64,000 bases of DNA, from assembly GCF_009389715.1 (NCBI RefSeq), contig NC_052407.1:3537154-3601153 (forward strand), given 5' to 3'. The notes under the pieces were generated by a model, which saw only the letters and a list, made by a program, of their open reading frames with translations, was not told where the DNA came from and ran no database searches. Of the stretch, positions 29,650 through 60,500 are shown piece by piece (the first letter of the stretch is position 1; each line of letters starts with the position of its first letter). Source of the stretch: Phoenix dactylifera. Taxonomy: Eukaryota > Streptophyta > Magnoliopsida > Arecales > Arecaceae. Made by a program: the position numbers and the translations under genes.

Positions 29650-30790
29650 ATATTGGTTTCAATGCAATGCGACTGACTTTATATGCACTAGCACATCTTC
29701 TAGATTCCTTGAAACATGGCTTTCTCGTTAAAACCAAACCACATGCAAATAATCTTAGATGTTAAAACGTAGGCTTTATTAGGCTTAATTACCTTGATGT
29801 GGACCTGCCAATCTTGGAGGAAAAATAATATGATTAACACAATATGATAAGTCATCAATGAACCACATCAGCACATGAGATGGCCCAAATCCAGGTTGGC
29901 AGGCCCTTACATCAAATTTCCCTGTGAAATTGCTCTGTGACTTCTCAAGCCAAGCACTGCACATTTCAGAACCATAGAGCTGATGAATTTGAATTCGAAA
30001 GCCATCACCAGCACTACAAGTTGTCTACGCCGCATCTTTCTATAGTTAAGACCACAGAAAGTAAAGATCTTGCAGATCCAGAACTTTTCCCTAATTGCAC
30101 AAGAACTGAGACAAATCATTCATCGTAAGGTTTAAGATAAGCCTTTCCTGGCTGGGTATTTTGCAGGATTCGCATAGGATATACAAGGATGCTCGCTACA
30201 TATATCCTAAGATTCAGTCACCCCTTTGTGATCCGAACTGGAGACATTAAAGTCCTAAAGTAATCTATAATAAAGAATGATGGCTGTCTAAAGAGTTTGT
30301 TAAGAATAACAGAAGCTGTAACTTACTGAATCTCAATACAAAAACAATATAAAGGATGTAGAAAATCACATCAATGCAAATTAAGCTAATGTGTACCAGA
30401 AAGGGTGGCATGAATCTCAGATTATCATGGGCTAAGAGAAACCCTAATTAATTGGGGAAATGGGCGTACTAAAAAGGTTATCACTGAGGATCCATCGGCG
30501 GTTTCTAACGGTAGACATTAGGAGGGAGGACCTTCTTGGAGTCAGGGACGCATCGGGCCTGTGCGGCCAACTGCGAGGTAGGTGAAGGCCATGGGAGGGG
30601 TTTGAGGAAAAAGTTGAAGATATGCAGAGTAAGTTGGAGGAGTAAGCTGATGAAGGAGGAGGAGGCCGCGGAGAGATGAGGAGAGAAGAGGCCGGCGGAG
30701 GTAGCGGAGCAGGAGGAGCACGATCGGTGGTAGGAGTGAGAGGAAAGGGTCGGGTAGGAAAGGGCTAGAGATTTGGAGTAAGAAAATTTT
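29650..30790. other. No confirmed gene; possible exon pieces
   Basis: A plus frame at 29937-30128 and a proline/leucine-rich minus frame at 30542-30814 look partly coding but match nothing I know. A telo-box-like AAACCCTAATTAATT lies at 30441-30455 and a plus-strand ATG follows at about 30461 with roughly 40 open codons. I cannot choose a model. Confidence 0.3.
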
Positions 30791-31578
30791 AGGGGAATTT
30801 GCTTCGCGGTCCAAAATTAGACCCCTGTATAACGAATAGTCCCTGTTGACTGTGCATTTAATAAGCGGTCCATTGACATATCAAATCTCATAAGGAGACC
30901 AAAATACCCCTGACCTGTTTCCTCTTCCGTCGTTCCTCGTATGCATGTGTTCATTTGAACGAGCCCTATTCAAAGTTCACTAATTCCAGCCCTCGTTCGT
31001 CCCCAATCTTCGTATCCTAATCCTCTCTTCCGACGGAAAGAATTCCATAAAAATCTCGCCCGATTCCGCTTGATTTGAACGCCCCGGTTTCGAACCCTAG
31101 AACTGCAAATCACTTCCCAACGGTACTCGATCTTCCTCTTTTCCCCTGTTTAGCCGTTCCCCTTTTGGAAAAGTAGAACCCTTCCGATCCGATTGTGAGG
31201 AGCAAGGCCGCCTCGGAGTCGACCTTCGACCGACTTCGCCCTGTTCGTTGTAGCGGAAGCTTAGGTGGACATTGGTCTCTCCAACCTTCTAATAGTCGTT
31301 CTGCATTCCTTCAACAGGTTTGTCACCGCATACTTTCTCGAATAATGTATTGAACACGGACGTGATATGCAGTATTGTACGGCATTCCAGGTAGTTGTTG
31401 GAATGGTCCAGTGGTTTTGCGGGATTAATGGACAGAGAGGTTGTGGTAGCACATTTGAGAAATTTTGTTTGTGGGAAAATTTCTTCCATTCCGTGCTAAT
31501 TGTGTACTTTGTTTTAGTTTTTAGGATGATTTATTTTTGTTGATATTATCAAAAATATAATTTGTAACTATATTTGTG

Positions 31579-34500
31579 ATGCAGAATCTAAGATGGCCCC
31601 AAAGCAGAGTATCGGCAAAAATCCTCTGTTGGCCCGATACTATGGTTAATGGAAGATGTTATTTCACCCACTTTGTAAATTTTATGGTCACCCTAATCCC
31701 ATTCATGTCTGATGAACAGAAGGAAAGAATTCGTGGCACTCCATTTGGGCACATGCTAGATCTACCATATATAAAACAGAGTAGGCCTGTCTTGGACACA
31801 TTGCTCTCCCTTTGGGATAATGTTGAGGAGGGTTTTTGGTTTGGCAGGGTATAGTGCCTTTTGTAGGGACTGATTTCGCACTAATCCTTGGTTTGAGTGC
31901 AACGGGTGATGAGGTGCAACTGCATAGGAAGGGAGGGTTACGTGTGACCTCATCACCCGATTTTTTGATGGTGACCACCAGAAAGCCAGTAGAGATGCAA
32001 TTAAAAGTAGATTACAAGTCCTTGTCGGTAAGAGCAGTCGACAAGATGTGGAGGATTTTACAAAATTATGGGTTCTTTATCTTTTGGGACTATCCTCTTC
32101 CCAACCGTACGCTACTATGTCCCTAAGACATTATGTTCATATGTCGATGATTTAGACCGCTTAGGTTCGTATAGTTGGGGTCTTGCCGTTTTCTCTTTTC
32201 TTCGGCAGCAAATACCTAGTCTAGCTGATAGTGTGAAGACTAGAAACGTCACAGGCCAAGGGGTTGGTAGATACATGGATGGCTGCACGGTCGCCTTGGT
32301 GGTAAGCATCATAAGATGTTTTTTTTATATTTCATTGTTACGATATATATATTTAGATGTAATTTGATGTTTACAATGCATTTTTGCAGGTATGGGCTGT
32401 TGAGCATGCTAACAGCATTGTTGGAAGGCACCGACCACCGTTCATGTATCCACGTCTCGTACGCTGGAACAACACCCCATTTCCCCGCAGGGTGGACGTG
32501 ATTGCGGATGTTATGAAAAATTTAAAACGATTTGAGGTTTGAATGTTGAATTCTTACATTGGAAATATTTTAACTTGTACGTTAATTTAACAGTTCGAAA
32601 ACTTTCGAATGCTTTAGGTTATTGAGAAGTTAGAACCAAGAGAGGAGGAGTTGCACCTTCTCTCAGCTGGAAGGCCACAATTACGTGTGCCTGATGAGAG
32701 GCGTGCGGAGACAGAACATCAACAATCCGTGCATGAGGAACTCAGGTATTAGCAGCTTACTGTGACAATAGCATTTACAAACACAAATATATGCACTTTT
32801 GAATTGGCATGCAATTTTCACTTGTCGGCACATAGTTCAAGTCTGCACACATTGATGTATGCTACAGTTTGTTCAATTCATACAAGCTAATTCATTATTG
32901 TGTGTTTTAGATTCGTCATCTAGCCAAAGTGGATCGACATTCATGCGGAAAATTCACACAACGTATCACAGTGCTTGAGACGTGTTTGGTCCAACATGGG
33001 TTTTAGTTTGCAGACCCTCATCCTATTGGGGATGTTGAGAATATCCGCATAGAACAGCTCGATAAGAGGGTGTCCGACAATTAGAGAAGGTCCTACGAGA
33101 TAAGGGCCTTCTGGTTGATGACAAACCTGGTGAGGCCTGCTACTGTTCCTCCTGAGGTAAGCATGCTTCCTCTGTATAAGGTCTGACAAGTTAACTACCA
33201 GTTCTAGTATGAATCGACCTTGCTTGATTTAAACAACCTCTTCCTTGGTTACGTGAAGGAGCATACTACAGTTGATCCACGCTATCACGACGATGCTCTT
33301 CAGAAAGATCTCATATGCAGCATAGTGCTGATTCGGGTGGAGGTATGTCAATTTTTTGGTACGTAGTGTTCGCAGTTTTTAGAATGGTAGTATAAATTGT
33401 CTTGAATGCATTTTCAAATCAGGTTATTTCGTCCACTGATGCTGAAGCTAAGAAGAACAGAGAGCTCCCAGGTCATATGGTGTCCTCCTTATTGCAAGCG
33501 CGTGAAGCTGGGAGCACGCGAAGCGCAAGCCATCGGAGAAAGCGAAGGCCATATCAGACCAGCCAAAGACCTATAAAAGGGCTAAAAAAGGGTCAAAGTT
33601 GCCGAAAATAGTGAGGTTTGTACGGGAATTACTATTGTGTCGAGGATTCGCCCGCTCGGTCAACCAACATATTCGACCACACGACAAGTTTCATTAATGG
33701 AGCTCCAAAAATCGGCTCCAACATGGGAGAAACCTCTCCCCCGGGAGCGGTATAGAATTGTTGTCTCGTCCATATGTGTTTATTTATCCATATTGAATTT
33801 ATTGAACTTAGCATATAGTGTCGTCCACTAAAGTTAACGATGTTCAGAGAGTGGCACTGAAACGTAGCTTTCATGGGAAGGGGACAAGTATACTCCCTAT
33901 TAGGTATGAAGACGCTATTAAATTCTTCCTCGAAGAACATGAGTTTGGGTAAGTTAATTATATTAATTGACCATTTTTCACAATTATCGCATTTCAAGTT
34001 CTTAAACATAACTATGTTATGTAGGGTTATAATATGGGAGGACGAGAATCGTACCAAACCTGCATGCAGCCCTGATGCCTTAGTGCAGGTCCTACATGAC
34101 AAGGCACTACGGAGTGACGTATGCTCCTACAATGAACTACTACTGCAAATTGTAATTTGGTACTAAGTGCGTACTTCTTTTATTGCGTACAGGTAATCAA
34201 TGTGTACTTTCGCATTTTGGAGCTTCTGCCTCGTGCCACTAATGAGATTTATTGACAATCCATATTTATATTTGGCGCTGCGAGATCCAGGTTTTGAATT
34301 ACTGCTCATGATGTCTCGTTCTTACATTTTTCCAATTGAAATTCAGCGTGCCAACTAAGCTGTGTTAAATAAATTGTATGCAGGCTGCCGTGCTCCAGCA
34401 TCTACCATTGGATTACCTCTCAATTACCACTGATGTTACCAAAAGAATTCATAGAGTCATTGCTGCCCAGTATTCAAACATGGCTTCGGGAATTCAGATG

Positions 34501-34995
34501 TGCCGATCTTCAAAAAGTGTAGATATCTCTTCATTCCGATGAATACGGGATGGCATTGGTATCTACTTTCTCTGGACTTGAAGGACCAGCGCTTCGAATG
34601 CTACAACTCCTTGTGGAGTTTCGACGTTGGGGTGGACGCTGTTAGATATGGTTGGTATCACTTGTGAAACCTAATATTACTGAGAACCCTTTTTAGCAGG
34701 CGTATGTTCTTAAAATTTTGCATTCTTCACATTATTACAGGCTTCTTTTGTGAGATCGTGGCTAAACGACGTTGTCGGATTTCGTATCCCAGAATTAGCA
34801 TATTCTGAAATTCGACAATGTGCACAACAACGAAATGATAGTGTTGACTGCGGGGCATACATGCTTATGTTTGCAGAGGGACTTACCCGAGGCAGCACGC
34901 GACCATTAAAGGAAGAATTGAAGGATCCATCTTTATACAGGAGCTGGGCTTGCAGGGAGTATTCTATTGTACTCCGGGAGCATTGCCAGCGTTAG
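31579..34995 (+). CDS. MULE-borne plant mobile domain / Ulp1 (C48) protease gene, interrupted
   Basis: The N-terminal part is a plant-mobile-domain-like segment: LDLPYIKQSRPVLDTLLSLW, IVPFVGTDFALILGLSATGD, DDLDRLGSYSWGLAVFSFLR, VWAVEHANSIVGRHRPPFMY, RVDVIADVMKNLKRFEV. After introns and a variable middle, a C48 cysteine-protease end appears near 34500-34995. It includes a His-bearing LHSDEYGMAWHW equivalent in a shifted frame, then DVGVDAVRYG and the catalytic-Cys motif RNDSVDCGAYMLMF, with a stop at 34995. Ulp1-like proteases cut SUMO-type proteins; their role in MULEs is unknown. Frame changes near 31640, 31850, 32100 and 34530 show decay. The start (MAPKQ near 31594, or 31579) is uncertain. 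Confidence 0.7.
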
Positions 34996-34999
34996 GTTT

Positions 35000-35550
35000 A
35001 GGTCAATGTACCCTGGGAAGACTTGTATAGAGAAATCGTAGACTACGTGTTGTATCACATGAATGCAAATTAGTTGTAAAACTTGATTGTAAATGTGTTA
35101 TAAAAGGATGTTTGTCCAACTGTAATTCTTGTTCTCTGTAATAAAATATTTTCAGACATAGTATCATTATTCCCTGCAAAGTCCTTATTTATTGCAATTT
35201 TTCCAACTCCTGTCATGCTCATCGCTTAAACGAAAAGTCTACGGTGACTTATTAAAAACTGAGCCCACTTAAAAATCGATTTCTACAGTACGAGTTTTAT
35301 CGTAACAATATCATCCCTGCACAAAAGTAACAATGATTAGCATCAAACATTTGTGTTTCATAAAGCGTGTCGGAGTTTGAGAAACTGTCTTCGGCCTAAC
35401 ATTCATGTGGTTGAAATGCCTAAATTCAGATGGTCGGACATCTGGCACACCACGAGTCCGAGTCTGGCACAGCATTCCTAAATTCAGAGGCGACTTTGTT
35501 CGCCGACGAGTCCAAGCTAACTCACCAGCCACTCTTAGGGATGCAAACCT
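35000..35550. other. Spacer after the Ulp1 gene
   Basis: Contains AATAAAA-type words near 35140 that could serve polyadenylation of the Ulp1 gene, then sequence that grades into the GTCGAC array. No separate gene. Confidence 0.4.
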
Positions 35551-35554
35551 TGAA

Positions 35555-36312
35555 TGTCCGGAGGTCGACTCGGCACACCAAGCCACTCTCTGTGTTGGCT
35601 CTGTGCCACTTAAGGGGTCGACTCGCCATTCACTGGGGTCGACGCGAGTCGACCCCAGCACACCAGGCACTCTTTAAGGGTCGACTTCCTTATGTCCAGA
35701 GGTCGACTCCAGTCTGCCTGAGGTCGACACTTAGGCTCTGGCTGTTTTTGGGTGCTCTCTGTCTTGCCTCTGTGCCACTTAAGGGGTCGACTCGCCATTC
35801 ACTGGAGTCGACTCCCTTAGACTGGAGTCGACCCCAGCACACCCAGGCACTCTTAAGGGTCGACTCCCTTATGTCCCGAGGTCGACTCCAGTCTGCCTGA
35901 GGTCGACACTTAGGCTCTGGCTGTTTTTGGGTGCTCTCTGTCTTGCCTCTGTGCCACTTAAGGGGTCGACTCGCCATTCACTGGAGTCGACTCCCTTAGA
36001 CTGGAGTCGACCCCAGCACACCAGGCACTCTTAAGGGTCGACTCCCTTATGTCCAGAGGTCGACTCCAGTCTGCCTGAGGTCGACACTTAGGCTCTGGCT
36101 GTTTTTGGGTGCTCTCTGTCTTGCCTCTGTGCCACTTAAGGGGTCGACTTGCCATTCACTGGAGTCGACTCCCTTATGTCCAGAGGTCGACTCCAGTATG
36201 CCTGAGGTCGACACTTATGCGTCGCTGGCTGTTTTTGGGTGCTCTCTGTCTTGGCTCTGTGCCACTTAAGGGGTCGACTCGCCAATCACTGGGGTCGACT
36301 CCCTTAATCTAG
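35555..36312 (+). repeat. Left GTCGAC-rich tandem array, five units
   Basis: The phrase CTGTGCCACTTAAGGGGTCG recurs at 35601, 35769, 35949, 36127 and 36257 (periods 168, 180, 178 and 130 bp). Each unit carries several copies of GGAGTCGACTCC or GGGGTCGACTCG, and GAGGTCGACACTTAGGCT. The palindromic SalI word GTCGAC occurs dozens of times. Repeated open frames here are by-products. Confidence 0.93.
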
Positions 36313-36506
36313 TTAACTTTTATTTCTTTCCCCTTTTTTAGCAATCTTCTGGATGTTACGAATACACAATTACCATAGAATCAAAATATCATTATACAAG
36401 CCATGTTGGTCAAAAATAGAACATTTCATTGCACTTGTAGACATTACATAAATATATTACAATGAGTCTCCTCGAGACCTATTAAACTCTTGCAGACAAA
36501 ATAACC

Positions 36507-37923
36507 TTACTTTCTAGGAAAAGAAGAAATCATGGGGCAGTGAAACTCGAAGAAGCTCTTGGCAGTCTCCCCAATACAAGACCAGAACTCTAAAACTTTC
36601 TGCAGAATGGCTGCAACTTCAGAGTTGGACTGGAGATAGGACTTGTTCAGGTCAGCTAAAGTCTGATTGGATCTTATGAAGTGATTGTAGAAGTTTGTCG
36701 CATACATCCTGTGCATTTTCATTCAGATTCTCCATGTCCTTTCTGACAGATTGTTGAAGCTTTTTTGTCTCCTCTTCTATGTCCACAAATCTCTGGTACT
36801 GTCCTTGAACAAGACATCGAAGACTGACCATTTCTGCCCTCATTTCAGCGACCAATTCACACACGGTTGCGTTGGAAGGTACCAAGTCTGTACAAGCAAC
36901 ATCTCTAGAATTCTTAGCTCTTGCACGATATCATCCCTTAGTGCTCTGAACTGCTTCAGCACTAAGTCTAACTCAGTGGGCTGCTGAGTTTGGGCAATTG
37001 GTTCTTCAGTGGGAGGATGAAATGATTCTTCATTTCGACAGGTCGCTGCTCTTCTCTATGGCACGCACTGCTCTTCCCTTCATCTTTTCTTATCCACTGA
37101 CCATCTTTCTTACGAAAACCCATTCGATGTAGCGACCGGTCATTGTAAGTATCCCAATGACCAAGAGTTGTAGATGGTTCCCCTTCAATATTTACACCGA
37201 ACTCCTCGAAGACTAAGGTTAAGAGCATTCCATATGGCAAGGATGCCTTAGCTCTAGAGGCAGACTCTACCATGTGTCTAATCATCAGGTGAGGTAAACT
37301 AAGGGGGCTACCGTTCAGAATGTGGAACATAACAAGAATATCTCTTTCGGACACAAAATCAAACCTACCTGTTTTCGGAAAGAGGATTCGGCTAACAATA
37401 TGATGTAATAGTCGATTTTCCACACTAAGTCGGTTGGCCAAATTTGCTCAAGTGGACTAACATTTTCTGTGCCAAGAAGATATTGAATGCCCAACACTCT
37501 ATTTTCTAAAAAATCTTCGGTTGAACCAGAGGTTGGGATGTTCACAAGACTCCCTAGGGTTTCCGGGTTTAGCAGAATTGGGGTTTTGTTTACCACACTT
37601 TCAATGCTAGCAATTTCGGTTTTGAGATTGGCATAGAATTGGCGAACAAGGTTCGGGTACGTCGGAATGTCAAGGGAACATAGGGTTTCCCAACCCATGG
37701 CTTTCAGCTTCAGACCTATGGTAAAACCCTGGGCTTCTAAGAAGTCGAAATCTATTTTCCTACCGAGAGAAACACGACGAGTTACCAAGGGTACTTGCCT
37801 AGGAGGAGATGGAGCATGCGGACGAGGAGGAGGAACGTCGTTTCTTGCCTTGGACCTTCGCTCGGTTGCTTCCGGAACATTACTTCTCTTCTTTGAAGGC
37901 CGCACGACCTGCTTCCTCGGCAT
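36507..37923 (-). other. Putative plant transposon protein ORF (Transposase_32-like), broken
   Basis: From an ATG at 37923 the minus strand reads a basic N-terminus, then IDFDFLEAQGFTIGLKLKAM and DIPTYPNLVRQFYANLKTEI. A second reading gives PKTGRFDFVSERDILVMFHI, SRAKASLPYGMLLTLVFEEF and DRSLHRMGFRKKDGQWIRK. A coiled-coil-like tail follows near 36700-36880. This is the conserved 'putative plant transposon protein' region that I recall from many plant genomes; its element class is unsettled. The copy is broken in one or two places. It lies between the left GTCGAC array and the minisatellite, on the same strand as MURA. Confidence 0.6.
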
Positions 37924-38004
37924 GGCGACGGATGGATGATAGGTAGAGAGGAGGGAAGTAAGGAATTGGACGAACGAAGAGACGCAAGGAGCACGGGAAG
38001 GGAA

Positions 38005-38242
38005 CTTAGGTCGACTCCACGAAAATAGAAGGGAAGAGGGAGTCGATTGACCTCAGGTTTTATTTCCTTATTGGAGTTACGGGTCGACCTCAGGCATACT
38101 GGAGTCGACTCCTACGAAATGGAGTCGACTCCCTCTTGATGAGAGGTCGACTCGTAGCTTGGCTGCGTACACAGGCGCTATTTGGTATACTCTAAGAGAG
38201 TTATGGGGTCGACTCCAAATATCAGTCGGGTCGACTCAATCG
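38005..38242. repeat. Short GTCGAC-rich stretch next to the minisatellite
   Basis: Words GGTCGACCTCAGGCATACTG, GGAGTCGACTCC and GGGTCGACTCAATCG repeat at short spacing in what would be the promoter region of the 37923 ORF. It has the same word family as the two large arrays. Confidence 0.8.
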
Positions 38243-40852
38243 TAATAACTGTGTTTCCAGAGAAGCTAACTGTGTTCCCAGAAAAGCTAACTGTGTTCCC
38301 AGACAGCATGCTAACTGTGTTCCCAGAGAAGCTAACTGTGTTCCCAGACGGCATGCTAACTGTGTTCCCAGAGAAGCTAACTGTGTTCCCAGACAAGCTA
38401 ACTGTGTTCCCAGAAACAAGCTAACTGTGTTCCCAGAGAAGCTAACTGTGTTCCCAGACAGCATGCTAACTGTGTTCCCAGACAAGCTAACTGTGTTCCC
38501 AGACACTCCGTAACTGTGTTCCCAGAGAAGCTAACTGTGTTCCCAGACAACCTAACTGTGTTTCCAGAAACAAGCTAACTGTGTTCCCAGAGAAGCCAAC
38601 TGTGTTTCCAGACAAGCTAACTGTGTTCCCAGACAAGCTAAATGTGTTCCCAGACAGCATGCTAACTGTGTTCCCAGAGAAGCTAACTGTGTTCCCAGAA
38701 ACAAGCTAACTGTGTTTCCAGAGAAGCTAACTGTGTTCCCAGACAAGCTAACTGTGTTTCCAGACAGCATACTAACTGTGTTCCCAGACAAACTAACTGT
38801 GTTCCCAGACAAGCTAACTGTGTTTCCCAGAAACAAGCTAACTGTACAAGCTAACTGTGTTCCCAGAGAAGCTAATTGTGTTCCCAGACAGCATGCTAAC
38901 TGTGTTCCCAGACAAGCTAACTGTGTTCCCAGACACTCCATAACTGTGTTCCCAGAGAAGCTAACTGTGTTCCCAGACAAGCTAACTGTGTTCCAGAAAC
39001 AAGCTAACTGTACAAGCTAACTGTGTTCCCAGAGAAGCTAACTGTGTTCCCAGAGAAGCTAACTGTGTTCCCAGACAGCATGCTAACTGTGTTCCCAGAG
39101 AAGCTAACTGTGTTCCCCGACAAGCTAACTATGTTCCCAGACACTCCGTAACTGTGTTCCCAGAGAAGCTAACTGTGTTCCCAGACAACCTAACTGTGTT
39201 CCCAGAAACAAGCTAACTGTGTTCCCAGAGAAGCTAACTGTGTTCCCAGAGAAGCTAACTGTGTTCCCAGACAAGCTAACTGTGTTCTCAGACACTCCGT
39301 AACTGTGTTCCCAGAGAAGCTAACTGTGTTCCCAGACAACCTAACTGTGTTCCCAAAAACAAGCTAACTGTGTTCCCAGAGAAGCCAACTGTGTTCCCAG
39401 ACAAGCTAACTGTGTTCCCAGACAAGCTAAATGTGTTCCCATACAGCATGCTAACTGTGTTCCCAGAGAAGCTAACTGTGTTCCCAGAAACAAGCTAACT
39501 GTGTTCCCAGAGAAGCTAACTGTGTTCCCAGACAAGCTAACTGTGTTCCCAGACAGCATGCTAACTGTGTTCCCAGACAAGCTAACTGTGTTCCCAGACA
39601 AGCTAACTGTGTTCCCAGAAACAAGCTAACTGTACAAGCTAACTGTGTTCCCAGAGAAGCTAACTGTGTTCCCAGACAGCATGCTAACTGTGTTCCCAGA
39701 CAAGCTAACTGTGTTCCCAGACACTCCATAACTGTGTTCCCAGAGAAGCTAACTGTGTTCCCAGACAAGCTAACTGTGTTCCCAGAAACAAGCTAACTGT
39801 ACAAGCTAACTGTGTTCCCAGAGAAGCTAACTGTGTTCCCAGACAGCATGCTAACTGTGTTCCCAGAGAAGCTAACTGTGTTCCCCGACAAGCTAACTGT
39901 GTTCCCAGACACTCCGTAACTGTGTTCCTAGGGAAGCTAACTGTGTTCCCAGACAACCTAACTGTGTTCCTAGAAACAAGCTAACTGTGTTCCCAGAGAA
40001 GCTAACTGTGTTCCCAGAGAAGCTAACTGTGTTCCCAGACAGCATGCTAACTGTGTTCCCAGACAAGCTAACTGTGTTCCCAGACACTCCGTAACTGTGT
40101 TCCCAGAGAAGCTAACTGTGTTCCCAGACAACCTAACTGTGTTCCCAGAAACAAGCTAACTGTGTTTCCAGAGAAGCCAACTGTGTTCCCAGACAAGCTA
40201 ACTGTGTTCCCAGACAAGCTAAATGTGTTCCCAGACAGCATGCTAACTGTGTTCCCAGAGAAGCTAACTGTGTTCCCAGAAACAAGCTAACTGTGTTCCC
40301 AGACAAGCTAACTGTGTTCCCAGACAGCATGCTAACAGTGTTCCCAGACAAGCTAACTGTGTTCCCAGACAAGCTAACTGTGTTTCCAGAAACAAGCTAA
40401 CTGTACAAGCTAACTGTGTTCCCAGAGAAGCTAACTGTGTTTCCAGAGAAGCTAACTGTGTTCCCAGACAGCATGCTAACTGTGTTCCCAGACAAGCTAA
40501 CTGTGTTCCCAGACACTCCATAACTGTGTTCCCAGAGAAGCTAACTGTGTTCCCAGACAAGCTAACTGTGTTCCCAGAAACAAGCTAACTGTACAAGCTA
40601 ACTGTGTTCCCAGAGAAGCTAACTGTGTTCCCAGAGAAGCTAACTGTGTTCCCAGACAGCATGCTAACTGTATTCCCAGACAAGCTAACTGTGTTCCCAG
40701 ACAAGCTAACTGTGTTCCCAGACACTCCGTAACTGTGTTCCCAGAGAAGCTAACTGTGTTCCCAGACAACCTAACTGTGTTCCCAGAAACAAGCTAACTG
40801 TGTTCCCAGAGAAGCTAACTGTGTTCCCAGACAAGCTAACTGTGTTCTCAGA
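38243..40852. repeat. 21-bp minisatellite with ~790-bp higher-order period
   Basis: The basic unit is about CTAACTGTGTTCCCAGACAAG (21 bp), with 23- and 24-bp variants (AAACAAG, CAGCATG) and a short CTAACTGTACAAG form, some 120 units in all. Variant order repeats. The marker CACTCC(G/A)TAACTG lies at 38504, 38934, 39142, 39293, 39722, 39910, 40085, 40514 and 40723, giving a three-marker pattern with a period of 789-792 bp. The marker AAATGTGTTCCCA near 38640, 39430 and 40221 gives 790 and 791. Three higher-order copies are therefore present. Because 21 is divisible by 3, long frames coding SGNTVS repeats arise by chance. Confidence 0.93.
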
Positions 40853-41462
40853 GTTTTGAGTCGACCTCACCGAGTTTTGAGTCGACCTGCGTGCAGTGGG
40901 AGTCGACTCCGGTCAAAGACGAGTCGACTCCTTAGGTGGCACAGAGCAAAGAGAGAGAGCAGCCGAAATAAGGGAAGCCTAAGTGTCGACCTCACCGAGT
41001 TTTGAGTCGACCTCCTTGCAGTGGGAGTCGACTCCGGTGACGGACGAGTCGACTCCTTAGGTGGCACAGAGCAAAGACAGAGAGCAGCCGAAATAAGCGA
41101 AGCCTAAGTGTCGACCTCACCGAGTTTTGAGTCGACCTCCTTGCAGTGGGAGTCGACTCCGGTGAAAAGCGAGTCGACTCCTTAGCTGGCACAGAGCAAA
41201 GACAGAGAGCAGCCAAAATAAGCGAAGCCTAAGTGTCGACCTCACGGAGTTCTGAGTCAACCCCTGGGCAGTTCGAGTCGACCCCAGTGAAAGGCGAGTC
41301 GCCCCGTTAAGTGGGACAGAACAAAGACAGAGAGTGGACCTTAGCTCAGCCAAGCCTAAGAGTCGACCTCTTTTCCTACCGAGTCGACATCGGGACGGAT
41401 CGAGTCGACTCCAATATTTTCGGAGTCGACTCGTTAAGAGTCTCAGATTAGGCAAAGTCGAA
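40853..41462 (-). repeat. Right GTCGAC-rich tandem array, four units, opposite orientation
   Basis: GGCACAGAGCAAAGA recurs at 40938, 41063 and 41188, with a variant at 41313, a period of 125 bp. The reverse complement (GTCGACACTTAGGCTTCGCT, CTCTGTCTTTGCTCTGTGCC, GGAGTCGACTCGTC) matches the left array (GTCGACACTTAGGCTCTGGC, CTCTGTCTTGCCTCTGTGCC). The two arrays are therefore one family in inverted orientation around the ORF and minisatellite. Unit length and sequence have diverged. Confidence 0.9.
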
Positions 41463-41776
41463 GGAAAGCCGGGAAACGGGATTTTAGGTGACAATATAAA
41501 TTTTTCCACGCCATATTCAACTATTGTAATTGTCAGAGCTGACGTCGAATGCTATGCCAACTGTTGATTAACTGTGTATCATTACGTGTTTGTAACAATT
41601 TTTTAACTGCATTCCGGTTTGAAGTAACTGAATTAAAATCTAACAAAAAATAAACATATACAATTCAGTTTGCACTTCATTAACATCAATACAAGAGTTT
41701 TGTTCTTAATATGCTGTGACTAACATGAAAATACATTGCAGGTATCTCGATACATTCTTCATAATGTCCATATTCT

Positions 41777-44143
41777 TTACTTGATGACCTCATTACAAGT
41801 CCTTCTATTGTGCCCAACCTTCCCGCATCGTCCACATCTCATTTCACGTACTGACTCCACTTGCGAAGGTCTTCTCTTTTTTTTAGGCCTGCCAGGACGT
41901 GTCTTTCTTATAGGGGGTAGAATGTGAATCTCTTCAGAGGCACTTTGGGGTTTCTACATGTCAGGAATTGGACTGATTGCTTCGGCATATGTTACTCTAT
42001 ACAATTCAGCTTGGAAGCAATTGTCGGTGAATTGGTATAGTGATCTGCCGTCCTTCTCGATGCATGCACAAGCACGCTTACATGGCATGCGGAAGATTCG
42101 CCACTCGCCACAAGAGCAGCTACACATATGCAGGTCAACTTTGCATGAGTAGTTGGTATCCTTTACATCATATATCATTATGTTGGACGTAAATACAGCT
42201 AATCTCCGACCATCTTCTGCATTTTTTTGCAACACTTTCTCCGCATCAGGACAAAGTTGAGATTGAATGCTATATCCTCGATTACAGCGTTCATGCATCA
42301 TCTGCATTATTTGGATCCTTATATGGTCAACCATCTGAGGCACAGGGAGATGACGAGCCTCCAGGACCCAACTATTAAAAGACTCTGCCACATTCGATGT
42401 CATGATGCCCCAGCGTGGACCTGGAAATACAGCATTCGCCCAATGCTCCGGCTTTGCATGTAGGAGAAAGGTGGTAACACCAGGGGCTTCTGATGTAAGC
42501 TTTGCAATTAGCTTTCGGAATACAGTAAGCCTTGGTGTATAGGCAGCAGCATTTAGTAAATCAATAAGCCTCTTTCTCTCAGCTGCACGATAATGGACAA
42601 GGACCTGCATTGATAATTAAAATCAGATATACCACATGCTACATTACTTAGATACTTTGTAGTTTAAATTATTCATAATATGACGATGCAAACCTGATTC
42701 TTGAAGTTTTCTTTCACATGACGTATACAATATGAGTGGTAAGAATCAGGAAAGTACTTCGGCACGGATTTAATAATGCCCTGATGTCTATCTGTCATAA
42801 ATGTGAACTGTTGACCACTATACTCAGTACAACTATGAATAGCTTCTTTCAGAAACCGGCAAAACCATTCCCAATTTTCATCACATTCTGTATCTACAAC
42901 ACCATAAGCTATAGGAAACATATCATCATTTCCATCTTTGGAAGTGGCTCCAAGCAATACACCTCCATCCTTATGCTTTATAAATGTGCCATCCATAAAA
43001 ATCAGAGGACGACATCCTTTTATGAAACCCATTAGTGAAGCATGAAAACAAATGAATAGACGTCTGAATCGACCATCAATTGTTTCATACTCTGCAATGC
43101 TGCCGGGGTTGGTCTGACGAATGGCATCGCAATACCAGCGAATCCGTTCATAAGATAGCCGGCTGTTACCATAAAGATCCATCATAGCCACCTCCTTACC
43201 ACGCCAAGCTTGATGATACGGCAATTCAACACCATATTGTCGTCGAATATCCTTTACAATATCACTCGGCTTATATAACGGCATATCTTGAAGTTGATCT
43301 TTAACAATTTTGGAAACCCAACGTTTTGAAGCCTTTGGATGAGACCGCACTTGCAATCCTCCTCCACATGTGTGGTTACAGTGCATTTTTTTAATTGCAA
43401 ACTTTTCACCATTCCCAAGGCGAGAAGCATGAATACGCCATTCGCAACCTTCATAAACACATTCTACAGTAACTCGATCACGATCGTTCTTCACGAAGAC
43501 AAAATCCCTGCAAATTGCAATGCAATAGTTGCGAATGGTGTCACGTAGAGTTTCCACATTCATGAACTCCTGACCAACACCCTCTATACTATTTTTCCAA
43601 TCATCCAACGAATTTTTTTGACTTGCTTCCTCTTCAATTGCGGCTCTTGTTTCTTCAACAACTTGACCAAAATTACTTGAGCTACCCTTCGAAAATTTTT
43701 TTCCTCTCGAACTGATTTCAGCACAATGCGATGAGCCACTGTTCATACAATACGATAAACATTATTTTAGCAAACTTACTAAAATCCGTTGCACAAAACA
43801 ATATTTAAAAAAGGGAATATCTCTCAATTACCACAGCAGCACCTTCGATCAAGGTTGGAGAATGAGTAACAACCATCTCGATCACCTTGGCATTTAAGTT
43901 GACGTGTATTTCATGCATGTTACGAACATCCTTATCGCTCATGAGCGTAACAAGCATTTTAGACTTGTTTGGAATATAAAACTTAACTTCTATCATTGTA
44001 GAAGATAAATGTCTCCACCTTTCAACTATTTCCTTAAAAATTTGATCAAGAATTGTGTCTTTTGAGATGGAAATAATCACAGCTTCGCTACCATAAGAAC
44101 AAATGGCCATAAAAACAGAGCTACCAGTGTCTTCCGAAGCCAT
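41777..44143 (-). CDS. MURA transposase of a Mutator-like element
   Basis: Exon 1 (44143 to about 43832) starts MASEDTGSSVFMAICSYGSE and holds a PB1-like region. Exon 2 (about 43746-42694) holds the zinc-binding N-terminal domain (CVYEGCEWRIHASRLGNGEK, HNHTCGGG-like) and the DDE core: first Asp in FMDGTFIKHKDGG, second in FTFMTDRHQGI. Exon 3 (42604-41954) holds the Glu (NVAESFNSW) and a SWIM finger (CSCSCGEWRIFRMPC). The exon 2/3 junction is GT/AG and phase 0. A TAG at 41954-41956 ends the frame. The same frame continues to 41777 with an NLS-like RPGRPKKKRRPS and a CCHC knuckle CGRCGKVGHNRRTC, so the stop looks recent. The best exon 1/2 splice sites do not share phase, so that junction is uncertain. 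Confidence 0.85.
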
Positions 44144-44149
44144 GACAAT

Positions 44150-44790
44150 GGAAAAAAGAGGAGGCAATGAACAGATAATTCCGAATTGCAAACAGACTTA
44201 GGAATATAGTGGAGCAGAGTCTCACTACACAGAGAAAGAGGGACTATCAGCGTTCTCTCAAACAGGGAACCGGTAAAGAGTAAGATGTAGTCTCAACGTT
44301 TTTAGGTCAACATAAAGGCTCGACATGCTCTCTCCCTATCCATCTAGCATCCATCCTAATGGGTGCTTGTCTCTTCCCAGACCAAACAATCTCCATTGGC
44401 AAAGACAAAACAGAGAAGAACGGAGACAAAACGCATACCCTGTTGCGGCCTATTTTTACATCTTTTTTCCGTCTCAAAATCTTCCTCGAAACCCATCTTC
44501 GGTAAACACCTTCCGTGGGATCACCAGGGGCATCCACGCTTAAGGGCTGCAAGTGGGAAGCTAACTTCGGAGCATCTTCGGTAGACAAAAACAGAGTGTT
44601 TTCCGGTTACAAAACAGAACGCAGTACCTATTTTTTTCCCGCTTCCGGTAGCATGGGGGTACTTAAGTAACCTGGGGGCACTTTGGGTACTATATTTTAA
44701 AGCAAACAGTAACTTAGGGACCGGGAATTAAAGATCCATGAAGCGGTGGACCGGAAGTTCTTTTTTGGGTCAACCGGGACCTCCTGTTAC
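44150..44790. other. MURA upstream region and right MULE end
   Basis: Holds the presumed promoter of the minus-strand MURA gene and, near 44640-44755, sequence similar to the left end of the element in inverted orientation (GGTCC, ACTTAAGTAAC words). No separate gene; frames at 44307-44588 overlap on both strands without a domain. Confidence 0.45.
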
Positions 44791-44794
44791 AGCG

Positions 44795-45021
44795 GGGTCT
44801 TTAGAGGGACGGAAAAGTAATTTTCCGAAAATTTTATTGGTTTCCAACCGTGTTTTTAAGTGTTATAACATAACGACGTTTAATAAAAATTATCTTTTGA
44901 TGATGCTTTTAAGCATCATAACTCAACACCGCTCCAAAGAAGCGTCGGGATAAGCCTTCTCAATTGCAGATGCCAATAATAACACGACGCTAATAAGATG
45001 CGTCTCTAAAATTTGGTGTAG
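44795..45021. mobile_element. CACTA-like terminal fragment
   Basis: Read on the minus strand from 45021 it begins CTACACCAAATTTTAGAGAC and carries repeated GCGTCG/GACGC words in inverted orientations, as in the subterminal regions of plant CACTA elements (typical end CACTACACCAAA). The first bases of the end are altered and the other end is not seen. It abuts the MULE end. Confidence 0.45.
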
Positions 45022-54513: not shown

Positions 54514-57500
54514 ATGGGGGACATGTACACCAACATCGTGGATTTCATGCGGCGGCCGGCGGTGGTGGAGACGCTGATCGATATTTTGCTGTGCGCCGTG
54601 CCGATCTGGGTGGCGGTGATGATCGGGCTGGTGATTGGGTGGTCGTGGCGGCCGCGGTGGACGGGGCTGTTGTTCCTGGGGATGAGGAGCAAATTCCGGT
54701 TTCTGTGGACGGCTCCGCCGGGCCTCGGGGCCCGCCGGCTCTGGCTGGCGTTCACCGCCCTCTCAGCCTTCTCCGTGTGCCGGAAGCTCTGGTCCAGCTT
54801 CAAGGGGAAGGGCGAGGGGTCGCCGGCCCCGGAGGACTCGGCCTCCCGGCCGGCGGTTTCCATGTCGTCCGCGGACGAGGACGGTGGTGGTAGCTTCAGG
54901 TGGGTGTGAATTCCTTTTGGTTTCTTGTTTTTGGGTTGTTTTCTTTGATAAAATTATTTAATTTATGCATTTATGGGAATTAGGTAAGTGAATGTTGTGC
55001 AAAATAGAGGGTCCTTTCATGCTGAAAGAAAGATAAAGATCGGTAATTGAGTAATTTTTAGGAAAAATCCCGTTTTGTCTTAGTGGAGTTCTATATTCAT
55101 GTCTTTCTGTAATTCAAAGGTTTTTTTTTTTTTTTTTTTTTTTTGCGTGCGTGCGTGCGTGTGTCGCTGAATGCTGCTTAATCTTTTGAAGTCTGAGAAA
55201 ATTTGAATTGTAGAAAAACTAGGTTACAATACAAGAATTTATGTGTTTTTATATATATATTTTTTCCTATCTTAACTTTCTGTCTGAAAAGCAGAGGCTT
55301 TAATTAGGAACCCTGTCTTCTTGAAATGGGTTCACTTTAATATGCTTAAAGTCAAATTTTGTCTATATCGAATTATAAAGGTGAGACCAAAGACTGTTGG
55401 TGCGATGGGATTTCGAAGAGGGTAGAGATAATAGAAGTCGCTGGTTGAGTTATGAGACTACTCGGGCTTCATGCATATTGAGTAGAACCAGCAAATCATA
55501 TGATTGTGGTTCACAATTTTATGAGAGTTTCAAATGGGCCTCGTATCCTGGAAATGAAAACTTACCATTATGCTTTCGGTGTTTCTCTTGGGAGCGTGGG
55601 GACTTATTATAAAATCGTGAAGATTAATAATACAAGCAGTGGACAAGAGAGAGAAACTTGGAGAGAGAAGCAACTGGTCACTGCCGTGATGCTTTTCTTT
55701 ACAGTGAGATTCATGGGCCTAGAAATTGGTTGAGAGATTAGAACTTCATGCATGTACTATCCTTCTTTGCTTCAGTGGCCAGTATGAACTTATTTATGAA
55801 TGGATGATGCATCTTACTAAGTATTGAAGAGTATGTGACACAAATGAAATTGGACAGATTTTTATTGGAGGATGTGCATTGAAAACATCCTTATGATAGG
55901 ATAAGCAGTCATAAAACTTTGTTTAGTTCTTTAATGGAGCCTTCTCAACTTAAAATTTTGCTCTGATGCTGACCTCATTTGATAGGAAAAAGATGAAAAA
56001 GATTTCATTGATATTGATGATGATGGCCAATTATGTATTTCTGGATCAAGGCTCAGGCTCCAAACTGGGAGGAATGTGATCGAGGGAATCATATATTTCT
56101 TGAGGGGCATCTACTTCAAATAATCAGAATTAGTCCACTAGTTGATTACCTTTCCGGTCATTGTTTTGAAAAGTAGCCTCTTGGACTGCAGAGGCAGTCA
56201 CCCAAGCTTAGGTGGTCACCTGGCCATCCACTCAGTATCCAACCATTTTGGCAGCTTCTATATGTTGGTCGACCACTTTGCAAGAGCCTCCGTGGCCAGC
56301 CTAAGCATAAGCAACCCAAGGGCAACTAGGTTGCACAATATTGTGGAGTTGGCAAGGTATTAGGCATGGTTGTTAGGTGGATTAATAACTAATATCATTA
56401 ATGTTTAACAATGCATCGACTCATTTGAAGTATTTAACATGTTTCTGTTAAGATCAATTATCATTGTTACATAACAGGAAACATATCATTGTTACACTAA
56501 AATAAGTCCTTAAATAAATGTTAAAAATTCTATAATTTAGCTACTTCCTTTGATTTGTTGACTTAATTTAATTTTATATTATATTTACTATTGTGAATTT
56601 TTAATTCATGTTTTTTAGTACAATAAGTTTAAGTGATTGGCTTGGTGCTAAGCTATTTCTAGAGAACCTGCATATCTCAACCTCCATAAAAAATGTTTAG
56701 TTGAAGATATCCATATTCTAAATGTAATTTTTTGTCTAACTGCAGGAAATGTGTTTTTATATAATCCAAGGATGTTGTCACGAACCATCAATCTGACTTC
56801 AACACAATTAGTGTTGGACAGAATGCATTGTTTACGTTAGCTTTTTGATTCCTTCTAAGAAGATGTCTATGCATATTCTTTCCAACACCTGATGCCTTTT
56901 GGTTAGTTTAACATTGAATTGACTTAAGAATTCTGTCTCCATAGTTATGAATCGTGCTTGATGTATAGTTATGTTGATGAGCTTTATGTTTGAACTGGTC
57001 ATTCTCTGATGGAACCCATGTGTATTTCATTCGATGTTAACCAATGATCGATGGTTTAAGATGACTGAATCCCAGAGCTTTCAGTTTCGACACTCTTGGC
57101 CTTCAAGATTGATATCTCTAATGGTAATGTCCAGATCCTTCATGTTATATTCTGACCACCGTCATTGATTTAGTCTGGAAAGGGGATAAACCGTAGTTAT
57201 ACCTGGAATGTCTGCCAAACAGCCAAAACAAAGGGCTGGATTGTTGTACTTGATTGTTCTTGTCAGTGGTCTTTATCATGGGATAATGTGTTCCTTAGAT
57301 ATAGTGGAACAGAGCTATCCAGCTTCCAACTAACTTTTGAAATGACCAAAAGCTCCCTCCCTTAGCAAGAAGAGAAAAAGCAGTGGTGTACTTCTCTTTT
57401 TTAACCAAAATGTAACTAAACAACTTTACTGTGTTACTATGTAACTCATGGAATGCCGTACCGGCCCATACCGGCCGGTACGGGCCGGTACGTACCGGTC

Positions 57501-60500
57501 CGGCCGTGGACCGGTACCGGAACGGATAAAAAACCGGTATTTCCCGGTTTTTTATCCGTACCGGCCGGTACGGGTGCGTACCGGCCGGTTCGGGCCCGTA
57601 CCGGCCGGTTCGGAGCCCGTACCGGCCTCGTACCGGTGCGAACCGGCCGGTTCGCACCGGTACGATTTTTTTTTTTTTAGAACCACAACGCCGCGCGCTG
57701 TGGTTTTTGAAACCACCGCGTACCGGCCGGTACGGGACCGGTACCAGCCGGTACGTACCGGACCGGACCGGTACCGTACCGGTCCGGCCGGCCACCGGTA
57801 CGCCGACCGGTACCGGTACGGCGGACCTTGATGTAACTGTTAAAAGAATTATTCCCTTTAATCCTGAAATCAACTATTGTTTTGTGAATAAAAAAGTTTT
57901 CCTAGAAATACATATCCAATTTCTAATTTAGGCCTCTGAATTTGCCTAGAACTATTGTTCAATGTTTTTGCAGGTCATAAAAGTGCTTTCAATGCTGTCT
58001 GCCTTCATCATAATGGTTCACTTATCCATGAATTGCAGATTTCCACTTAAGACATCAACATGTATAAGACATCAACATGTACCTTTGTAGCAAGAATCTT
58101 CTATTTAAGGTGGCGTGTCTACCTTTGAATCTCCTTGAAAACTCATCCCTGCACTCGCATCATAAAGTGTTCTCTTATTAAAAATTTTAGGAGACCCACT
58201 TCCCCGTACCTGGACTTGAGACTGGGATGTCATAAAAAAATAATTCACCATTTTCAGTGTGATTGGTGCAGAATTCAGTAGGATTAAACTAAGAATCCCT
58301 GTTTTAAATCATGAGAATGCTAGATCACAGCTATATGAAAGGAGTAAAAATTGATCTTACGTAGATCAGAATGATTATGAACTCAATGCATATCTGTGTG
58401 GTCACTTAAACCATAAGTGTGCAGAACCATTACCGGCATAAGAAAAGTACGACCGAGATGGTGTTGCCATGAGAATTAGCTCTTGATGAGGTCACTTGAT
58501 GGCGAAGATATGAATTAGTTGCATTGCTGGACTAAGTCATATGTGTCATGTGATATTCTTAAATCTTGGTATAAGGTTACATTAAGAGTTCTGCAACATA
58601 ATGTTCCCTTATGTGTCATAAAATTTTCCTTGTTGCTACTTTCACAATGCTTTTTTTTTTGGTTGGGGGGGGGGGGGGGGGTAGGAATATGTTGTCAATT
58701 AGAATAAGCTGTGACTCTCTCTAGGACCATTTCGCATCAGAAAAGGCTTGACTAGTATGCAACTTCAAAATTTTTTTGGCAAAAATTGAGGATTTATATG
58801 GCACTTCATAGCACCTTCATTTCTATTTATTTGTTTTCTTATTTTTGAGTGAACTAGTGCATGTATTTGAAGTTCAGAATGCCCTAACTTTCTTTACACA
58901 ATCTTTCTCTGGATCTACCAGTGGAGCTTTCAAGGGTGGGCATGATGTTGTTATTGAGAAAGATTTGGAGCATCTATTGCATCTTTTGGATGGTAAGGCG
59001 GGAGATGCAGTATGGCAAAATCAGATGGAACGCACCACACCAAACATGATATACCAAGCTTGGCGCCATGAACCTGAGGTAAAATATGAAGTTTTAATGC
59101 TTTGAACAATTACTGCAACAGAATGGTTTCAATAACTATATTGCTTCTGAGAACATACTGTGTCTCTAATATTTTTGTGTTTCCTAGGATTTGTTTCAAA
59201 TGCATGCATGCATGTGTGCTTTTGTCTTTCCTGCATTATGTTGCTGATGTATCTTTTCCTTTACTATTTTGAAATGTTTTCTTCATTAGTCTATTTTATT
59301 TTCCTCGTTTGGACAGAATTTTTGGAGTTTATTGTTTCTTCCTCCACTCATTTAAAAAAATGCTATGAAGTTCCTTTGCTTCATTTCTTTCTCACATAGT
59401 TTTGTGCTTTTGACCACATCTTAACCACTGGTATAATTCATCAATAAATTCAAGATTCTGATGTTCTTTTTTGTTCATCAGGTGGGCCCCATAATTTATC
59501 GCAGCAGAACTGTATTTGAGGATGCAACTCCTGAATTGGTCAGAGATTTCTTCTGGGATGATGATTTTCGACTTAAATGGGATCCCATGCTCGTGTACTT
59601 TAAAACTTTGGAGGAATTCCCTGAGAGTGGAACAATGATTGTTCACTGGATAAAAAAGGTTTTCAACAAGCATCACTCATGCAAATGTTGATTCTCAAAC
59701 TTATAATTGCTCATAATAAAAGTTTGACTTGATTGCTTATCTGTCACCTCCAGTTCCCATTCTTCTGCAGTGATCGAGAATACATAATTGGTCGACGCAT
59801 ATGGGAGTCTGAAAAGACTTATTATTGTTTGACAAAGGTATTGTATGACAAGTTTCTAGATTAGTTGTGGTCATATCTTCTGTTTAATGATTATTTTGCT
59901 ATCAAACTAGACCATGCTCAATCCTCTTTGTATATTTATCCATTTTTTAATTTGTGTTGCTTGTATGCTACTATATCTATGTTTTCTTCTTTAAAAAGAT
60001 TTTGTAAGGGATAGGGTTTTCTTGGTAGAAAATAATGGATCCGTATTTCATTTTCATCAATGTTCTAGCATTAAGGGCATCTCTTTCCATGTATCTGGGT
60101 AGAATAGCTGCACATCACAGATTACAAAATTCAAGACTCTCCAGCTCGGCTCTTTTTCCATTTTATTTAACTTTGTCTGTAAAGTAATATTTTTGTACTA
60201 CATGGACTGAATTGTGCCAATCATGCACGCTTCATGTTTTGCACAACATTGGGCAAACATTGTTTGAAAAATGTCCAATATCTGCCAAATAAAATCACAT
60301 TAAATCTTTCTCTACACTGCAATGAAGAAGGAAATACTAACAAGATGGAATGGCCAAATGGACCATCAGACCTTTCTGATTATTTGTCATCTTGGCCTTA
60401 GTTATAAGACTGTAGTATAGCATTAGGGGTATAAACAAGTTCAACAAGCTGGGCTCTGCTCAAGCTCGGCGCGACATTATAAACGGTCTGCTCGATAGCG

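Follow-up and report, generated by a model that had tools for sequence, protein, structure and literature searches.

A Sirevirus-like PF20167 gene with phased palindromic arrays at the centre of a 14-kb Ulp1-carrying MULE

The MULE and its central module

The window, a 64-kb stretch of DNA, contains one copy (W) of a 14.0-kb MULE (30792..44827), delimited by copy alignments and with the ends GGGGAATTTGCTTCGCGGTCC... and ...AAAGTAATTTTCCG. In 30-kb tiles, six further MULE copies match across 30792-44827 and show no plus-strand match of more than 150 bp beyond it. W is bounded by the target site duplication AAAATTTTA at 30783..30791 on the left and 44828..44836 on the right (9 bp by eye, 8 bp by script). 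Among seven copies, duplications of about 9 bp are clean in W, C173, C922 and C17; that of C1 is visible by eye and was missed by the script, whose right edge was off, and those of C2a and C50 are ambiguous (A/T runs). Long terminal inverted repeats were not found at the MULE ends, which share just ~20 bp of imperfect similarity as judged by eye. Many plant MULEs lack long TIRs.

Pfam matches bear out the initial annotation in placing the module between converging Ulp1 and MURA genes. The PMD-like/Ulp1 gene, of several exons, lies on the forward strand at 31561..34992 (low edge placed by eye); its C48 domain (Peptidase_C48) falls at 34455-34664 and 34714-34992, and a PMD-like piece at 32032-32364 is a weak match (E 0.02, below the cut-off). 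The MURA transposase gene occupies 41768..44191 on the reverse strand, as defined by homology across copies, with its low edge taken from alignment. It comprises ORFs at 41954-42610, 42673-43746 (the one supported by Pfam) and 43805-44191, and the DBD_Tnp_Mut and MULE domains identify the element as a MULE.

GTCGAC occurs 55 times in the window against ~10 expected from base composition, and 50 of the 55 sites fall within 35564-41430. The left array (35555..36312, 25 sites) is 3' of the ORF and matches the palindrome array of the Sirevirus 3' LTR; a cluster of seven sites 5' of the ORF (38010..38235) matches the boxes that precede the env-like gene in Sireviruses; the right array (40853..41462, 18 sites) is inverted relative to the left one, the longest arms being 76 nt, 83–86% complementary and 4.7–5.3 kb apart. 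TRF gave array units of 179 bp and 125 bp, and between the upstream cluster and the right array it delimits a minisatellite with a 21-bp period and a AACTGTGT core (38246..40852), which is also present in related MULEs without the module. The opposed arrays, the GTCGAC-rich region upstream of the ORF and the minisatellite, all noticed in the initial annotation, are real. The distance from one site to the next is a multiple of 21 bp, give or take 2 bp, in 18/24 cases in the left array, 5/6 in the upstream cluster and 17/17 in the right array; perfect 10-bp palindromes account for only 13 sites in this region of W. A chance origin of the arrays is ruled out by the excess of sites, the 21-bp phasing and the conservation of sites between W and the MULE C5b (see below).

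The ORF (36525..37923, reverse strand, low edge approximate) encodes 465 aa in intact copies and is frameshifted in W, so that its match to PF20167 ('Putative plant transposon protein') is split over two overlapping frames scoring 45.8 and 30.7 bits against a cut-off of 45. It is the sole Pfam match of the ORF at E values up to 0.01 and confirms the suspected transposon-protein ORF, though in a frameshifted state. PF20167 is the env-like 3' ORF of Sireviruses. The protein has a basic N-terminus. None of the eight long ORFs encodes a hydrophobic stretch suited to a transmembrane helix, the highest 19-residue hydropathy being 1.3–1.5, which argues against an envelope role. The AlphaFold model, of low quality (mean pLDDT 38, pTM 0.17), gives no DNA-binding fold, and a search of PDB sequences returned three weak, coiled-coil-like matches (best E 0.065).

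Probable Sirevirus origin and distribution of the module

The core of the module was most likely taken up from the 3' end of a Sirevirus (Ty1/copia), an origin well supported by sequence comparison. The Sirevirus 3' ORF is homologous to the module ORF along its entire length. Twelve non-MULE loci were compared (L029 and 11 further fetched loci), and in nine of these, namely the abundant type (L029, L032–L036 and L042; n=7) together with L038 and L039, clusters of GTCGAC/GAGTCGACTC sites flank the ORF on both sides; two-sided clusters are absent from L037, L040 and L041. The ORF is uninterrupted in L029, L032 and L033 among the abundant type. Copia pol domains were recognized by Pfam at L029, and by eye a pol tail precedes the ORF in L034, L042, L032 and partly in others, as does a degenerate RT in L038 and L039.

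With motif definitions taken from the portion of PMC2829016 available, polypurine tract (PPT) octamers (AGGGGGAG) occur in all seven abundant-type loci and in L038, and the junction AGGGGGAGATTG at L029, L032, L033, L035 and L038; L034, L036 and L042 possess octamers without the junction, and neither motif was found at L039 or L041. In 7/7 abundant-type loci, palindromic RM boxes without the CGG-CCG core are present both on the 5' side of the env-like gene and in the 3' LTR, whose position was deduced from the junction motif. The donor-type loci thus share octamers, junction and palindromic boxes with the Sireviruses of that account, from which they differ in that the motif is GAGTCGACTC and the CGG-CCG core is missing; the 21-bp phasing and the presence in a DNA transposon are additional here.

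In alignment, W and L038 are ~70% alike over the ORF and arrays. PPT octamers number zero in the modules of W, C105 and C5b; the MULE module, having neither PPT nor LTR junction, is a Sirevirus derivative and no Sirevirus itself. Its 'arrays' look like the palindromic boxes of such a foreign 3' end, which precede the env-like ORF there and are present in the 3' LTR as well.

A first survey for PF20167 gave 7,495 first-look candidates, of which 150 were scored. ORF places with at least 60% identity number 33, and 27 of them are no more than 15 kb from a match to Ulp1 or MURA. The remaining six comprise C74 and C1887, which on inspection proved Sirevirus-type, together with C1803, C1281, C2262 and C432. 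The full 464–465-aa frame is uninterrupted in 11 of the 27 MULE-type places and broken or partial in 16. The whole layout was recovered in at least 17 of 46 near-full transposase matches (from 120 MURA matches listed), a census in which the array, ORF and Ulp1 lists hold the top-scored places and 'none' is no proof of absence. All six tiled MULE copies carry the module between identical ends.

Between C105, a MULE of another subfamily, and the W family, identity drops stepwise from 96–98.5% to 84–90%. MURA dS is 0.33–0.36 (4 copies, about 0.34; the set being C173, C17, C2a, C105 and W only) and ORF dS is 0.00–0.029 in six copies and 0.032–0.045, untrimmed, in two. So near-identical a module (ORF dS 0.00–0.045) despite a MURA dS of ~0.34 implies that the module moved between MULEs. 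C105 lacks the right array. The sequenced sister MULEs C18 and C2:24624922, 87% and 82% like W in the DNA of the MURA region, lack the module, with one GTCGAC in 9.9 kb and none in 9.8 kb fetched, respectively. In the ORF tree the C5b MULE groups with L038/L039/L041 (support 97/99, or 89/98 without the long row L040), which suggests two independent captures by MULEs; a single MULE clade was not rejected (p-AU 0.060).

Conservation of the sites and the gene

Pairs of GAGTCGACTC palindromes spaced 21 bp apart number 111,310 (control 0), and those 26 bp apart (N16, the single spacing control) number 15 (control 1). In comparisons among seven Sirevirus LTR arrays, identity is 98.3% at palindrome bases and 80.6% at other bases, 658/761 palindromes are intact against 621/2390 ordinary 10-mers, and CpG is kept in 776/802 cases within palindromes against 1376/1815 elsewhere, all counted as ordered pairs that are statistically dependent. 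Sequence conservation of this kind supports selection on the palindromic site. Between the arrays of W and C5b, site bases are 94–96% identical and other bases 65–80%; whole sites are conserved in only 26 of 41 comparisons, and one C5b array contains nine exact cores and nine with one mismatch.

As for the PF20167 gene, dN/dS is 0.11–0.13 in three Sirevirus ORF pairs and 0.10–0.16 when MULE ORFs (C2a, C173, C105) are compared with L038/L039 at a dS of 1.4–2.1, near saturation; part of this latter divergence path may lie inside Sireviruses. Mutual comparisons of C5b, L038 and L039 gave 0.32–0.42. Among young MULE copies (C17 left out; 160 codons of W, 350 of C105 and 94 of C922) the ORF shows few changes and a dN/dS of ~1. 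With this ratio, 16/27 ORFs broken or partial and that of W frameshifted, recent purifying selection inside MULEs is unsupported.

A putative protein–site pair and its alternatives

The reading we favour, at a probability of roughly 0.6, is that a 14-kb Ulp1-type MULE took up a Sirevirus 3' end and with it a protein–site pair acting on the elements that carry it. The acquired piece would comprise the PF20167 gene together with the boxes ahead of the gene and those of the 3' LTR; the MULE has neither the PPT nor the LTR junction of a Sirevirus, and holds a second copy of the LTR array in inverted orientation. The protein would be a nuclear dimer binding GAGTCGACTC sites two helical turns apart, and would affect any element with such an array by chromatin opening, methylation removal or transcription activation, in parallel to the action of VANC on VANDAL motifs. 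With gene and sites held together, the MULE would gain a self-recognition system beside its own, which would pair the Ulp1-type gene with the AACTGTGT minisatellite. The module would later have reached a second MULE subfamily, most likely via recombination. This history suggests that gene and repeats form one working unit able to pass between kinds of jumping gene.

A broader proposal is decidedly tentative: that each Sirevirus env-like (PF20167) protein counteracts silencing of its own element by recognising that element's phased palindromes in a sequence-specific manner, and that a MULE with a Ulp1/VANC-like gene and AACTGTGT minisatellite stole this second, transferable self-recognition cassette, possibly twice, and then passed it to another subfamily. 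A DNA transposon holding the Sirevirus gene and boxes without PPT and pol serves as a natural experiment: it points towards a protein–site pair and specifies protein, site and spacing. If true, the proposal would carry the VANC idea beyond MULEs to an abundant group of plant retrotransposons, suggest that such systems move across element classes, and make the long-unexplained plant Sirevirus 'envelope' a nuclear DNA-binding protein.

Two alternatives are possible, each clearly less probable than the favoured reading. The module may be a passive passenger, a Sirevirus 3' end acquired by repair-linked capture, with gene and arrays useless to the MULE and persisting because the family is young. 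The near-neutral young copies and the broken ORFs, including that of W, fit this account, as does the frequency of sequence capture by MULEs reported in the available part of PMC13317346. Harder to accommodate are the survival of the ORF and both site clusters while the PPT octamers are gone (the frame of the MULE copy C14:18930521 is intact at 86% aa identity), the excess conservation of site bases between W and C5b, and the possession of the module by a second subfamily.

The palindromes may instead be sites for a host transcription factor of the stress type, with the gene merely a neighbour in the Sirevirus 3' end. Sirevirus boxes have been proposed as stress transcription factor sites (PMC2829016, in the part available), so the binder may be a host protein, and any dimeric factor would fit phased palindromes. 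Against this possibility, in the same account linker boxes of box-bearing Sireviruses are present only where there is an ENV gene (9 with, 4 without), and the MULE kept gene and sites while losing the PPT.

A use of the arrays by the MURA transposase, as internal binding sites or an assembly aid, would agree with their position inside a MULE family that retains them, but is very improbable given the near absence of the motif from the two sister MULEs. Least probable is one of two readings offered by the initial annotation, in which the inverted arrays are the subterminal ends of an independent DNA transposon inserted into the MULE: the arrays are indeed inverted and the core is foreign, but the one filled/empty pair (C105 versus C18) revealed neither TIR nor TSD at the module edges, C105 is without the right array, 27 of 33 ORF places lie near MULE genes, and the module occupies the identical position in at least 16 of the 20 copies whose MURA identity is 88% or higher. 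Nesting is thus disfavoured, and the other reading holds, in which a giant MULE has a specialised central region.

The protein–site pair of the favoured reading resembles known systems in part. VANDAL MULEs with VANC, as presented in the accessible text of PMC5735166, likewise combine a MULE, an accessory protein and short tandem-array motifs in non-coding DNA; the accessory gene here is of the retrotransposon type PF20167, with a putative anti-silencing role. Kaonashi (KIU)/Ulp1-carrying MULEs share with W the lack of long TIRs, the MURA gene and the Ulp1 gene, to which W adds the Sirevirus-type gene and GTCGAC arrays, neither being described for Kaonashi in the sections of PMC13317346 at hand. 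A further parallel comes from the PF20167 domain in the 3' extra ORF (aORF) of Athila, a Ty3/gypsy element. Unlike the module, Athila is not described as having palindromic arrays in the available portion of PMC11728184, which reports a predicted nuclear signal for its protein.

The GTCGAC module and the MULE that carries it

Two tandem GTCGAC arrays in opposite orientation, reported by the initial annotation at 35555-36312 and 40853-41462, were confirmed. A third, smaller cluster lies at 38010-38235, and a minisatellite of AACTGTG type with a 21-bp period (38246-40852) is found between the clusters. The module (35555..41462) holds 50 of the 55 GTCGAC sites of the window, about 10 being expected over the full 64 kb, and the spacing of adjacent sites is mostly 21 bp or a multiple thereof.

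Six genomic copies (C173, C922, C50, C1, C17 and C2a) align to the window over 30.79-44.83 kb; 30-kb tiles of all six revealed no extra plus-strand match >150 bp beyond these limits. The window's copy (W) is flanked by the 9-bp duplication AAAATTTTA. Such duplications are clean in C173, C922 and C17 and were seen by eye only in C1; the C2a and C50 flanks are A/T runs and ambiguous. The shared extent and the 9-bp flanking duplications indicate that this is a complete 14-kb MULE, moved as a single unit with the module included. Extra GTCGAC clusters (2-8 sites each) occur within the minisatellite of C17 and C2a (tiles L021-L026).

Of the 120 MURA matches listed, 46 were near-full; their neighbours were taken from top-scored places only, so that features may be missed. 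Among the matches listed, 17 of the 46 had all four features (Ulp1, left array, ORF, right array) nearby (16/20 at MURA identity ≥88%, 1/26 below), three had left array and ORF only, one Ulp1 and left array, one Ulp1 only, and 24 none. In the copy at C5:12567271 just 1.9 kb separates the MURA and Ulp1 matches, probably through internal deletion. For C8:3799344 (MURA 97%) and C286:86466 (88%) the matches listed include neither arrays nor ORF nor Ulp1 in the vicinity; both are possible deletion derivatives.

Sirevirus relatives of the module

The module is most likely (probability about 0.9) a captured Sirevirus gene together with its palindromic boxes. Its ORF belongs to PF20167, the env-like 3' ORF of Sireviruses. 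ORF queries of the 773-Mb genome gave 7,495 first-look candidates in one case (150 scored) and 9,913 in the other (91 scored). Twelve non-MULE loci comprised L029, a Ty1/copia element with gag, integrase, RT and then a 484-aa PF20167 ORF, and 11 picked from the scored candidates. GTCGAC clusters lie on both sides of the ORF in nine of the 12: seven loci belong to an abundant type, while L038 and L039 represent another; the decayed L037, L040 and L041 are without such flanking clusters. Among the seven abundant-type loci, three (L029, L032, L033) have an uninterrupted ORF.

The abundant-type site is a 10-bp palindrome, GAGTCGACTC, with 18-29 perfect copies per locus (six loci); L029 has 42 matches at ≤2 mismatches, 28 perfect, with 3.7 such expected. 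The downstream cluster is placed in a putative 3' LTR by AGGGGGAG octamers and the AGGGGGAGATTG junction motif, past which the first palindrome follows at ~180-190 bp in L029, L032, L033 and L035. The abundant-type loci match the Sirevirus layout of PMC2829016, in which PPT octamers follow ENV, the LTR contains palindromic repeated motifs, and elements with the env-like gene, but no others, carry further such motifs 5' of it. Most published motifs have a CGG-CCG core, whereas the present one does not. The order cluster, ORF, array recurs in the MULE; PPT octamers number 0 in W, C105 and C5b.

A second, decayed Sirevirus-type lineage consists of L038, L039 and L041, with a degenerate RT preceding L038 and L039 and a PPT junction in L038. 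The MULE ORF shows 67, 67 and 54% amino acid identity to these three (~70% in DNA), versus 35-45% to the abundant type. PF20167 ORF places 60-67% like the MULE ORF also occur at C1803:5311, C1281:13255, C2262:17861 and C432:175343, with no Ulp1 or MURA match within 15 kb.

Transfer between MULE subfamilies

C105, from a second MULE subfamily, differs from four W-family copies by a MURA dS of 0.33-0.36; its ORF dS is 0.00-0.029 against six W-family copies and 0.032-0.045 against two, untrimmed. Identity along C105 is 96-98.5% in the module, stepping down to 84-90% in MURA. By these comparisons the module has moved between MULEs. C13:10527736 and C14:9349034 appear to be C105-type, judged by their matches. 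The donor was probably a W-family copy, since C105 best matches C173 and both have a doubled upstream cluster. W and the diverged copy C5b have the right inverted array, which C105 lacks.

C18, a sister MULE with a MURA side 92.7% like that of C105, has minisatellites and no module. The module junctions (C105 versus C18) consist of short shared or locally repeated sequence with neither TIR nor TSD, and transfer therefore probably involved recombination or repair. The earlier suggestion of a transposon nested in the MULE finds no support, either in the junctions of this one pair or in C105, where the right array is missing. L028 (C5:10352600-10361500) is a mosaic, with a MURA 3' end 92% like W, Ulp1 75% and module 70%; its ORF is closest to the L038 lineage. 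Among the matches listed from open-access PMC (titles and abstract starts), no MULE with a Sirevirus gene or such arrays was described.

The palindrome and its predicted partner

Seven Sirevirus LTR arrays, compared as ordered and hence non-independent pairs, are 98.3% identical at palindrome bases versus 80.6% at others; CpG was retained in 776/802 comparisons in palindromes versus 1376/1815 elsewhere. This pattern indicates that the palindrome is under selection. Between the W and C5b arrays site bases are 94-96% identical and the rest 65-80%, with whole sites retained in only 26/41. Exact GAGTCGACTC pairs at 21-bp spacing number 111,310 genome-wide (reversed-pattern control, 0) and at 26 bp 15 (control, 1); such unusually common phased pairs could be used to map where Sirevirus ends of this kind lie.

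Gene and sites were found jointly in two unrelated element classes. Three Sirevirus pairs give a dN/dS of 0.11-0.13 and so show the PF20167 gene to be conserved; the path from Sirevirus type to MULE gives 0.10-0.16, but at dS 1.4-2.1. An envelope role is unlikely because the N-terminus is basic and none of eight long ORFs has a membrane-suited hydrophobic segment. PMC11728184 describes an Athila 3' ORF with PF20167 plus a nuclear signal. We tentatively propose, at slightly less than even odds, that the protein would bind the palindromes as a dimer, which might counteract silencing or drive transcription. VANC-like systems for LTR elements are discussed in general terms in PMC12844716. The predicted structure is poor, with a mean pLDDT of 38 and moderate values only in part of the C-terminal helix (residues 352-454).

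Central AACTGTG-type repeats occur in all five related MULEs examined (W, C105, C18, C2:24624922 and C5b), with or without the module: window 38246-40852, L027:649-3250, L030:2514-6689, L031:754-1875 and L028:2001-3764. They are often 21 bp or multiples apart and vary in unit sequence between subfamilies; C5b has the weakest set, with units in both orientations. By analogy with the VANC anti-silencing systems of VANDAL MULEs (PMC5735166) and with Ulp1-bearing VANC genes (PMC13317346), these repeats may be what the Ulp1-type gene of the MULE itself targets.

Elsewhere in the window, dense self-complementary CCGTACCGGCCGGTACGG repeats occupy 57458-57819. LINE-like reverse transcriptase/RNase H fragments close to the MULE (25-26.6 kb and 45.4-47.1 kb) and a minus-strand ORF resembling UDP-glycosyltransferase (63330-63977) were recognized by eye.
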